Positions 1,228 to 26,558 of a DNA stretch of 64,000 bases are shown one piece after another. The notes beneath the pieces were generated by a model. It was not told where the DNA came from and made no database searches. It saw only the letters and a list, made by a program, of their open reading frames with translations. How positions within the stretch are numbered: the first letter of the stretch is position 1; each line of letters starts with the position of its first letter. The DNA comes from Aneurinibacillus terranovensis DSM 18919 (GTDB lineage: Bacteria > Bacillota > Bacilli > Aneurinibacillales > Aneurinibacillaceae). A program made the position numbers and the translations under genes. The stretch lies in the NCBI RefSeq assembly GCF_000430625.1, contig NZ_AUMJ01000004.1, forward strand, positions 1 through 64,000, in the 5' to 3' direction.

Positions 1228-1271
1228 AGATAACGAGCATGCATACTATTCAAATGCCAGGAGGGGTTCTC

Positions 1272-3407
1272 ATGTGGGTACGAAATTATATGACGCGCAA
1301 CCCTATCGTTGTATATAGGCATCATACCATTCGCGAAGCTGCCTCCCTCTTGCTGGAGAAGCGTATTGACGGGCTGCCTGTTGTCGATGAATCCCATAAA
1401 CTTATCGGTCTGATAACGAAGTCACACGTGTTTCGGGCGCTTAAAAATCACCTCCCGGAAAAGACACCGGTTGAACAGTTGATGCAGTCGCGACTTGTGA
1501 CGTTGTATGACGACCAGCAGATTTATGAAGGGTGGGATGAAGAGCTCCAGGCCGGGCGGCTGCCTGTCACAGATCGGGCAGGCAAGCTTGTGGGAATTCT
1601 CACCCGGACGGACATACTGCGGGCGTTTGAGGATCAGACACAAAAGACGATCTCACAACTGGACGCCATTTTACAGTCCACGTATCATGGAATCGTCGCT
1701 GTTGATCTGAACGGACGATTCCTTTCCATTAATCAGGCGGCGGAGCGCTTGCTTGGGATTGACCAAAAAGAAATCATTCTTAAGCCAATTACCGAACTGG
1801 TTTCCGCCGGTCCACTGCTGTCTCTGCTGCTGTCTCCGGAAAAAAAACAGATGGTACGCCTCGATTACCTCGAACGCAAACTGCTGGTTAACCATACCCC
1901 GATCGTTACCGATGAAGGAGATAAAATCGGCATGGCCAGCGTCATGCAGGATATAACGGAACTTGAGGTGATTTCTACTGAGTTGAGCGCGGTTCAAAAA
2001 CTGAACCGTGAACTTGACACAATTATTGAATCCTCTCATGACGGGATCGTTGTAACAGACCAGCATGGTATCATCCGTCATTTTAACCAGGCATTCAGCC
2101 GGATGACAGGCGTTCCTGCGGCCGAGGCCATCGGGCAAAAGGAAGAGGAGCTTGAGAAGAGAGGCATCATCTCACAGGCCGTAAGCAAAATGGTTATTCA
2201 GCAGCGCAAAAGAGTGAGCGTCATTCAGAATGTCTCAACCGGAAGTGTGCTGCTCTCAACCGGGACGCCTATTATCGACGATAAGACGGGTGAAATTCTG
2301 CAGGTTATTATGAATTGCCGCGATTTAAGCCAGCTCAACCGAATGAAAAGGGAGCTTGATGAAGCTAAGGAGCTTTCTGAGCGCTATCATTCGGAACTGG
2401 CAGTGCTGAGGGCGCAGCAGATGGGGCTTGATGGCATTATCGCCGAAAGCGAAGAAATGGGCAATATTATTCAGATGTGTATTCGAATTGCCCAGGTGGA
2501 CACTTCCGTCCTCATTCTTGGTGAATCCGGCGTTGGAAAAGGTGTGCTGGCCAAAATGATTCACCAGCGGAGCTCACGCGCCACTGGACCTTTTATTTCC
2601 ATTAACTGTGGGGCGATTCCGCCTAATTTGCTGGAGTCTGAGTTGTTTGGTTATGCACCGGGAGCTTTTACGGGTGCTCAGCAAAAAGGTAAACCAGGTT
2701 TAATCGAACTTGCGGATCAGGGGACCCTATTTCTCGATGAGATTGGGGAGCTGCCTTTTGACTTGCAGGTTAAATTCCTGTCGGTTCTACAGGAGAAATA
2801 TGTCACGCGGATAGGAGACGTTAAAGAACGAAGCGTAGACTTCAGGCTGGTGGCGGCAACAAATGCCAACCTTGCGGAAAAAGTCAAACAAGGTACATTT
2901 CGAAGAGATTTGTACTACCGGATTAACGTCGTTCCGGTGGAAGTCCCTCCTTTGCGCAAGCGAAAAGAGGACCTGTTTCCGATGATTCAATTCTTTTTGG
3001 ATAAATTTAATAAAAAACATCATTTACAAAAGCGAATGTCCTATAATGCGTTAGAGCTTATGCAGGATTATTCATGGCCCGGAAATGTCCGTGAATTAGA
3101 AAATATAATTGAGCGGTTGCTTGTGACGACATTAGATGAAGTCATTGCGGAACACCATTTGCCTCCATATATTTTGGAAGCGGGCGAAGCATCCGTCCTG
3201 GCCCCGGATTTCGACCAGAGAAAGGCTGGAGTAAGCGCTGAATGGGCGCACCACCCGGGTTCCATTGAAACAAAAGAAGAGGAAAAAGCGCGCCTCACCG
3301 AGCTGTATACGCGGTACAACAGCACAAGAAAAGTAGCCCGAATTCTTGGAGTTCATCAATCCACCGTGGTGCGGCGGCTAAAAAAATACGGAATTACTGC
3401 TCAATAA
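1272..3407 (+). CDS. Sigma-54-dependent activator with CBS, PAS and AAA+ domains
   Basis: A 711-residue enhancer-binding protein. An N-terminal pair of CBS repeats (about residues 1-115) suggests nucleotide or cofactor sensing; two PAS-like domains follow (about 125-225 and 245-355). The AAA+ domain shows Walker A GESGVGKG, the sigma-54 contact loop GAFTGA, Walker B LFLDEIGE and a WPGNVRELEN segment. A TyrR/Fis-type helix-turn-helix (STRKVARILGVHQSTVVRRL) ends the protein. ATG 1272 is chosen because AGGAGGGG lies 6 bases upstream; an ATG at 1239 has no such site. Activators of this type usually control adjacent catabolic genes, but none is adjacent here; a perfect -24/-12 promoter lies 180 bases past the stop. 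Confidence 0.92.
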   Translation: MWVRNYMTRNPIVVYRHHTIREAASLLLEKRIDGLPVVDESHKLIGLITKSHVFRALKNHLPEKTPVEQLMQSRLVTLYDDQQIYEGWDEELQAGRLPVTDRAGKLVGILTRTDILRAFEDQTQKTISQLDAILQSTYHGIVAVDLNGRFLSINQAAERLLGIDQKEIILKPITELVSAGPLLSLLLSPEKKQMVRLDYLERKLLVNHTPIVTDEGDKIGMASVMQDITELEVISTELSAVQKLNRELDTIIESSHDGIVVTDQHGIIRHFNQAFSRMTGVPAAEAIGQKEEELEKRGIISQAVSKMVIQQRKRVSVIQNVSTGSVLLSTGTPIIDDKTGEILQVIMNCRDLSQLNRMKRELDEAKELSERYHSELAVLRAQQMGLDGIIAESEEMGNIIQMCIRIAQVDTSVLILGESGVGKGVLAKMIHQRSSRATGPFISINCGAIPPNLLESELFGYAPGAFTGAQQKGKPGLIELADQGTLFLDEIGELPFDLQVKFLSVLQEKYVTRIGDVKERSVDFRLVAATNANLAEKVKQGTFRRDLYYRINVVPVEVPPLRKRKEDLFPMIQFFLDKFNKKHHLQKRMSYNALELMQDYSWPGNVRELENIIERLLVTTLDEVIAEHHLPPYILEAGEASVLAPDFDQRKAGVSAEWAHHPGSIETKEEEKARLTELYTRYNSTRKVARILGVHQSTVVRRLKKYGITAQ

Positions 3408-3411
3408 CAAA

Positions 3412-3495
3412 AATCGAAAATCGATCCAACAGCGATCCGATATCGATGCAATATCGATGCGTTTTCGATGCGTTTTCGATGCAGTAATGATGCAT
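3412..3495 (+). repeat. Array of 11-bp direct repeats, candidate activator-binding array
   Basis: The motif CGATGC or close variants recurs with CGAT (or TGAT) beginning at 3422, 3433, 3444, 3455, 3466, 3477 and 3488, an exact 11-base period, about one helical turn. The array starts right after the activator stop codon and lies about 100-170 bases upstream of the sigma-54 promoter, the usual distance for upstream activating sequences. Binding by the neighbouring activator is inferred. A weak terminator-like hairpin (AAGCC...GGCTT, about 3521-3547) lies between the array and the promoter. Confidence 0.7.
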
Positions 3496-3585
3496 GATGC
3501 ATATAAAAAACATCTCTTTGAAGCCCGTACTGCTTTATTGGCGGCTTTTTGTTATGTTGGTGGCTCTGAACATCCCTCGAAATTC

Positions 3586-3601
3586 TGGCACGGTCTTTGC
3601 A
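3586..3601 (+). promoter_or_regulatory. Sigma-54 (-24/-12) promoter
   Basis: TGGCAC-N5-TTGCA is a complete match to the SigL/RpoN consensus, with GG and GC of the -24 and -12 elements 12 bases apart. It reads rightward, with an expected start near 3612, away from the activator gene. The next gene on that strand is ylaL 240 bases on, which has its own sigma-A-like promoter. Confidence 0.8.
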
Positions 3602-3611
3602 AGGATAAAGA

Positions 3612-3748
3612 AGCAGAATAAAGAGAGAACTACCGCAGTGCATGTATATATAAAACAGAAATCATACATGTTATTTTAAAAAGAAAAAAGTTCGTGGTAA
3701 GAGTGGAGTCTAACCTAAAATGAGCGGACGTAAGAACGCTGCGGTAGT
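3612..3748 (+). ncRNA. Candidate sigma-54-driven structured RNA or long ylaL leader
   Basis: The stretch after the -24/-12 promoter has no supportable ORF. It contains a perfect 10-base inverted repeat, ACTACCGCAG (3629-3638) and CTGCGGTAGT (3739-3748), enclosing about 100 bases with an inner hairpin CATGTAT...ATACATG. This could be a structured RNA or the leader of ylaL. No clear terminator follows. Confidence 0.35.
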
Positions 3749-3776
3749 ACATTACCCTTTATTCTCAAAATTAATG

Positions 3777-3805
3777 TTGTCGTTCACCCGGGTACATTGT
3801 AGAAT
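3777..3805 (+). promoter_or_regulatory. Sigma-A-like promoter of ylaL
   Basis: TTGTCG, a 17-base spacer and TAGAAT lie about 37 bases upstream of the ylaL start. Confidence 0.5.
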
Positions 3806-3841
3806 AAGAGTATCCCAGCCCAGCATAAGGGAGGTTTGCTT

Positions 3842-4294
3842 ATGGCAGAAGTTGTAGCACAATCTCTTAACCCAGAATTACTTTCTTTTCTGCAAAAAGA
3901 GCGGTTTGTTATGCTTTCTACCATTACCAGCCAAGGGGTGCCTTATGTCAGCGCCGTATCATGGGTGTATGCGCCGAATGCGTCCAGAATTGTGATTGCC
4001 GTGGACAGTAAATCGCATATTTTGGAAAATGTTGAGCGGAACAGCCATGTTGTCGTTACGGTTTTCGGCGCTGGTTCTGTGTATTCCGTTTTGGGAACAG
4101 GACATATTAAAGTCGCCCGCATGGAGAATATGCCTTTAAAATTATCGTTACTCGAAATTACAATTCATGAAGTACGCGACGTTATGTTTTACGGCTCACG
4201 TTTGTCTGTAGAGCCTCAGTATGAAAAGACATACAACGTTTTTGCCGCTGAAAAGCTCGATGCGCTTGTAATGGAAGCGTTAAAAAATGCCTAG
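3842..4294 (+). CDS. ylaL: Pyridoxamine 5'-phosphate oxidase-fold protein, YlaL-like
   Basis: A 150-residue protein with the split-barrel flavin-binding fold pattern: LQKERFVMLSTITSQGVPYVSAVSW near the N-terminus and a later RIVIAVDSKSHILENVERN segment typical of the FMN-binding superfamily. The family includes oxidases, heme and F420 proteins; the substrate here is unknown. Start ATG 3842 lies 7 bases after AAGGGAGG; an upstream TTG at 3836 overlaps that site. Its location between ylaH-like and ylaJ/ylaK-like genes fits B. subtilis YlaL. The stop codon lies inside the following terminator. Confidence 0.75.
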   Translation: MAEVVAQSLNPELLSFLQKERFVMLSTITSQGVPYVSAVSWVYAPNASRIVIAVDSKSHILENVERNSHVVVTVFGAGSVYSVLGTGHIKVARMENMPLKLSLLEITIHEVRDVMFYGSRLSVEPQYEKTYNVFAAEKLDALVMEALKNA

Positions 4295-26192: not shown

Positions 26193-26558
26193 TTGAAATC
26201 ATACAACCAAGGGAATCTTGCAACCAGCATCCAACAAAATCCAAAACGCAAACAGAAAATATCACAGAAGAAACGGGTGACTGTTCGTTACGGGATCAGC
26301 GGCGCGGAGAAATTGACGTACTTTTTTTCTATCCTGTTCCTGGTGGCACTATGTTTGCTGATAACTGCGCGTTATGCTCAAATTTCAAGCTATAATTTCC
26401 AAATGATAAAAATGCAAAAAGAGATAAAAACGCTCACGGAAGCAACGGGAGAACTAAGGGTACAAATTGATACATTGAGTCGGCCTGAACGAATTCAGCA
26501 GATTGCGGAAAAAATGGGATTGACAAGCAACGACAGTACCGTCCGTGTGGTCAAATAG
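26193..26558 (+). CDS. ftsL: Cell division protein FtsL
   Basis: A 121-residue bitopic protein: basic cytoplasmic N-terminus (about 1-45), one membrane helix (about 46-65), then a leucine-zipper-like coiled coil (QKEIKTLTEATGELRVQIDTL). FtsL forms the DivIC/DivIB subcomplex of the divisome. The TTG start follows AGGGAGGGATAAGG. It sits in the standard place between rsmH and pbpB. Confidence 0.88.
   Translation: MKSYNQGNLATSIQQNPKRKQKISQKKRVTVRYGISGAEKLTYFFSILFLVALCLLITARYAQISSYNFQMIKMQKEIKTLTEATGELRVQIDTLSRPERIQQIAEKMGLTSNDSTVRVVK

Follow-up and report, generated by a model that had tools for sequence, protein, structure and literature searches.

The question raised by this locus is what the dense row of short repeats lying between a gene for a sigma-54 activator and a perfect sigma-54 promoter does, and what that promoter transcribes. 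In the window, i.e. the whole stretch of 64,000 nucleotides of Aneurinibacillus terranovensis DSM 18919 that was analysed, the forward strand encodes a bacterial enhancer-binding protein (1239-3407) in which the Pfam domains CBS, PAS, Sigma54_activat and HTH_50 were detected. The protein is made of two CBS domains, two PAS domains, an AAA+ domain with the GAFTGA loop and a C-terminal Fis/TyrR-type helix-turn-helix (HTH), the AAA+ domain with its loop and the HTH being the combination expected of a sigma-54 enhancer-binding protein; Walker A and FRRDLYYR motifs were also found. The Pfam domains and the GAFTGA motif agree with the initial annotation, which had placed a CBS-PAS sigma-54 activator gene upstream of the repeats. 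Its start is more likely at position 1272 (MWVRNYMT), where the orthologs begin, than at 1239. The best NCBIfam model was PrdR (NF041552), and we rejected this assignment because the score of 483.3 bits falls short of the curated cut-off of 795 bits. A scan of genome contigs returned just an unrelated activator. Among the 151 genomes searched, nine clear orthologs sharing 74-78% identity were recovered, all from the same family, the next best proteins being at about 50% or less. All ten activators, including that of the window, are intact, and rpoN is present.

The repeats (3422-3500, forward strand) consist of seven YGATSC hexamers placed between 3422 and 3488 at steps of exactly 11 bp: CGATCC at 3422 and 3433, CGATGC at 3444, 3455, 3466 and 3477, and TGATGC at 3488. 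An eighth half-site, TGATGC at 3495, follows 7 bp past the 3488 copy. All are direct repeats, with no inverted part. The seven-copy 11-bp array first described from the sequence alone was confirmed by the letters themselves, by a motif scan and by TRF, which placed an array of 11-bp period at 3433-3482. Nowhere else in the 64-kb window did the motif scan detect three or more YGATSC at 11-bp steps. The 200 bp preceding the promoter hold 6 copies of the strict hexamer [TC]GATGC/GCATC[AG], whereas 1000 dinucleotide shuffles averaged 0.67 copies and reached at most 4. The positions given in the initial annotation were correct but its motif, CGAT(G)C, was not, the first two units reading CGATCC and the seventh TGATGC. 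Similarly, the step is regular as claimed but does not equal exactly one helical turn, 11.0 bp being slightly above it. Judged from the sequences of the relatives, the better definition of the half-site is YGATGC in both orientations.

The same order, array then sigma-54 promoter then RNA element, was found in all 10 family genomes encoding the orthologous activator. Each locus carries six or seven [TC]GATGC/GCATC[AG] hexamers in the 200 bp before the promoter for 0.2-0.7 expected, a count that none of 1000 shuffles matched at any of the ten loci. Pairwise distances between half-sites peak at 11 bp over the ten loci and the phase score is best at 10.5 bp. Absence of the array from close relatives, or loss of its phase there, had been named beforehand as what would refute the first interpretation; at each of the ten orthologous loci the array was found, with helical phasing. 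The regular direct arrangement is conserved in its phasing but not in its purely direct orientation: in one genome (G002) the array comprises three direct and three inverted half-sites, and the other relatives have mainly direct half-sites, usually closing with an inverted pair YGATGC-N4-GCATCR. In several genomes the stop codon of the activator falls within the first TGATGC.

The distribution of the array follows that of the activator. The eleventh genome of the family (G004) lacks the activator, the array and the RNA alike, without any array match. No further intergenic YGATGC array was recognised when the eleven family genomes were searched for direct repeats; the other repeats returned in relatives, judged from their match strings only, looked like long coding-type tracts or isolated matches and were discarded. 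Two of these (G010:C4:3784441-3786317 and G006:C153:2981-3219) are long tracts of 6- and 12-bp GATGC repeats, which look by eye like coding sequence of Asp-Ala type. Only the ten orthologs have the recognition helix HQST[VI][VA]RR, and twenty other activators of the class display different recognition-helix residues and no comparable half-site cluster nearby. We infer that the adjacent activator binds the array, this association being a correlation and not a proof of binding. Since all ten genomes belong to one family, joint inheritance accounts for part of the co-occurrence.

The promoter, TGGCACGGTCTTTGCA (3586-3601, forward strand), is an exact match to the -24/-12 consensus, as had been claimed, and TGGCA[CT]-N5-TTGC[AT] was found at all ten loci. 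The exact pattern has 13 matches genome-wide versus 3 for the reversed pattern. One of these lies in the window at 26344-26359, inside a coding frame (26193-26558) between rsmH-like and penicillin-binding-protein-like genes; it was not retained as a real promoter, being likely a chance match. Transcription from the 3586 promoter would start near 3610-3613. Enhancer-binding proteins of sigma-54 use upstream activating sites located about 100-150 bp before the promoter (PMC7057263). Consistently, the half-sites of the window are located 91-142 bp before the -24 element when the strict hexamer is considered, the CGATCC sites being further upstream, and those of the other orthologs at about 45-143 bp, barring stray hexamers outside the array.

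What lies downstream of the promoter appears from the sequence comparison to be a structured RNA rather than a protein gene. At every one of the ten loci, the 150-220 bp following the promoter contain a conserved structured RNA element. In the window it spans 3607-3765 on the forward strand and is matched by a covariance model (R1) with 101 bits and an E-value of 4.6e-20, scores which are not independent evidence because the model was built from those same sequences, window included. The closing stem P1 is formed by a 5' strand at 3616-3636 (GAATAAAG at 3616-3623 and GAACTACCGC at 3627-3636) and a 3' strand at 3741-3764 (GCGGTAGTAC at 3741-3750 and CTTTATTC at 3757-3764). Across loci, P1 occurs as GAACUAUCGC/GCGAUAGUUC and variants and reaches outward to the predicted +1, which ties the RNA to the promoter; a G-A mismatch is found in P1 of two genomes. 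A second hairpin, P2, with a GGAGAG loop, is found in 8 of the 10 RNAs (poorly formed in L019) and is missing in both genomes of the window's genus. An A-rich variable stretch separates P2 from an invariant 3' core, GAGTGGAG-TCT-AACC-TAAAATGAGCGGA at 3701-3728 in the window (forward strand), whose pattern over the ten loci is GAGUGGAG-N3-RACC-N4-7-G-N-R-CGG. A protein, another RNA or a ligand is the probable partner of this core.

Several tests argue for this structure. Over P1, P2 and a 2-bp core pair, 93.9% of cells are paired, and two-sided compensatory changes occur at 10 of the 21 pairs, a number equalled by none of 500 shuffles; the covariation signal collapses once the partners are slid by one column. 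RNAalifold retrieved the same two helices, and the fold z-scores of the ten RNAs range from -3.6 to -5.4 versus shuffles (-5.2 for the window). No reading frame common to the ten loci could be detected in the RNA region, and the length within the core is variable (25-27 nt). Searching Rfam 15 yielded no match to the RNA in the window or its nine relatives, even at E-values of 1 to 2, and by this comparison the RNA is undescribed. With a perfect conserved -24/-12 promoter at its 5' end in 10 loci out of 10, it has the sequence features expected of a sigma-54-dependent small RNA.

Among the eleven family genomes, the R1 model detected one strong copy in each of the ten activator genomes and none in G004. 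When 398 genomes of the class were scanned, its only match outside the family (G152, E-value 0.01) was discarded as being at chance level, and 398 genomes of the phylum gave none outside the family; stricter filters were used in these searches, which may have overlooked strongly diverged relatives. Searching 100 relatives at the nucleotide level gave only a 32-bp stray match at an unrelated locus. Two matches to the core outside the family, before ilvB (L057, near 1500, reverse strand) and between acyl-CoA dehydrogenase genes (L058, 1501-1527), were rejected as they lack the closing stem and the sigma-54 promoter and about three chance matches were estimated; both carry GAGTGGAGAGAAACCG in short gaps between metabolic genes. 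The gene order in G004 is YlaH, PNPOx-like gene, YlaJ, PhoH, with the PNPOx-like gene directly after YlaH, and in the sister family other genes fill the interval. Thus, part of the family either acquired the cassette or lost it. Shortly downstream of the cassette of G008 (L019:4710-5009) we also noted pieces of a group II intron matching the Rfam D1-D4 models.

Taken together, these comparisons make it likely that the locus is a self-contained cassette in which a dedicated sigma-54 activator switches on an undescribed structured non-coding RNA. The activator would sense a signal via its CBS and PAS domains, assemble on the phased YGATGC half-sites just 3' of its own gene and, once bound to the array, reach RNA polymerase-sigma-54 on the -24/-12 promoter by looping. 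This would yield a structured RNA of about 150-220 nt, with its 5' end held in the long closing stem. A more far-reaching proposal, which we consider speculative, is that of a lineage-specific new RNA class in Bacilli, transcribed by sigma-54 only under a dedicated ligand-sensing activator, whose monomers or dimers would line up on the DNA in an ordered row; the RNA core would bind a protein or a small ligand and thereby feed back on the activator signal.

The best surviving alternative is that the RNA, transcribed from the sigma-54 promoter, mainly serves the following gene as a long 5' leader, in the manner of a riboswitch or an attenuator. In the window this gene (3842-4294, forward strand) encodes a pyridoxamine-5'-phosphate-oxidase-like (PNPOx-like) protein (Pfam PF01243; NCBIfam NF005232, 'hypothetical protein'), and it is the next gene on the same strand at all ten cassette loci. 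No recognisable intrinsic terminator was found 3' of the RNA, between it and this gene, so transcripts may run on into the gene. In addition, a hairpin of GAGGATAT..ATATCCTC type just before the ribosome site was found in 7 of the 10 cassette loci versus 0 of 5 loci without cassette. Yet the PNPOx-like gene is also found where the cassette is missing (G004 and the sister family), its distance to the RNA is variable, and in most loci the sequence upstream of it resembles a sigma-A promoter of its own: TTGTCG-17-TAGAAT in the window (3777-3805, forward strand), a weak scan match, and TTGAGG-N18-TACAAT in several relatives. A palindrome spans this probable promoter (3777-3830 in the window and the same place in L018-L026). 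It makes a good hairpin in 7 of the 10 cassette loci, reaches 15 bp in L023 and L024, is weak in the window and is absent from the five tested loci without cassette; it could act as an operator or belong to a read-through transcript. A leader as the main role is rather doubtful, and an RNA acting mainly as its own species, separate from any leader role, seems somewhat favoured.

Other explanations fare less well. That the RNA serves as a CsrA sponge showing GGA in its loops is unlikely. GGAGAG stands in the P2 loop of most members with the GGA unpaired in most of them, a GGA lies within the invariant core, and csrA occurs in all ten RNA-carrying genomes but not in G004, a correlation that rests on one genome. 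However, GGA is at shuffle level in 10 of the 10 RNAs, without the enrichment in loops expected of a sponge, the conservation of the core extends far beyond GGA, and P2 is missing in the window's genus. Even less credible is the reading in which the array amounts to the activator gene's own intrinsic terminator, its repeats being incidental. In 7 of the 10 genomes the inverted half-sites and a T run do form a terminator-like hairpin, so that one sequence may act as both activator site and terminator. The array of the window, in contrast, is made of direct repeats only, with a weak best hairpin (-6.6 kcal/mol), six or seven phased copies are unnecessary for a terminator, and other activator loci lack phased copies. 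In place of such a combined element, the window has a separate terminator-like hairpin with a T run in the gap between array and promoter (3520-3550, forward strand), which probably ends the activator transcript; the hairpin scan that located it (match at 3530-3544) gave no more matches than chance. Finally, a small protein encoded in the region is highly improbable, as the short AUG frame (M-x-Y-R-...) starting in P1 at 5 of the 10 loci is set against the lack of a shared frame, the changes in core length and the compensatory changes in the stems.

We return to the activator-RNA cassette as the preferred reading and compare it with known systems. Its closest analogues are in Proteobacteria, where small RNAs that depend on sigma-54 and lie next to their activator are well documented. 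In enterobacteria, the sigma-54-dependent small RNA gene glmY adjoins the locus of QseF (GlrR), which acts through several upstream activator sites (PMC6075780). QseF is a two-component response regulator recognising three TGT-N12-ACA sites, whereas here a CBS-PAS activator faces half-sites about 11 bp apart, and the glmY RNA and its hosts are unrelated to those of the cassette. In Vibrio, the sigma-54-dependent small RNA gene qrr1 lies beside its activator gene luxO (PMC8043402). There, qrr1 and luxO are divergently oriented and V. harveyi has five copies, qrr1 among them, while the cassette RNA is single-copy, downstream and co-oriented, and bears no sequence relation to Qrr1 (no Rfam match). 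PrdR, whose model scores best on the activator (483 bits against the cut-off of 795), controls proline reduction in Clostridia, with a predicted site TGT-N10-12-ACA and the prd genes as targets (PMC6615313); both site and targets differ here.

In Listeria, none of 102 non-coding RNAs was positively regulated by sigma-L (PMC8066629), and in C. difficile most were assigned to SigA, with SigD, SigB or sporulation factors accounting for a few (PMC7438776). Our limited literature check, which included these two Firmicute studies, neither of which reported a non-coding RNA dependent on sigma-54, found no description of an activator-adjacent, sigma-54-driven structured RNA in Gram-positive bacteria. 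The cassette would provide a concrete, testable Gram-positive case and a new RNA family for curation, and its half-sites one helical turn apart are an unusual activator layout, useful for studying the assembly of AAA+ activators on DNA. By analogy, it most likely works like QseF-glmY and LuxO-qrr1 without belonging by sequence to either.
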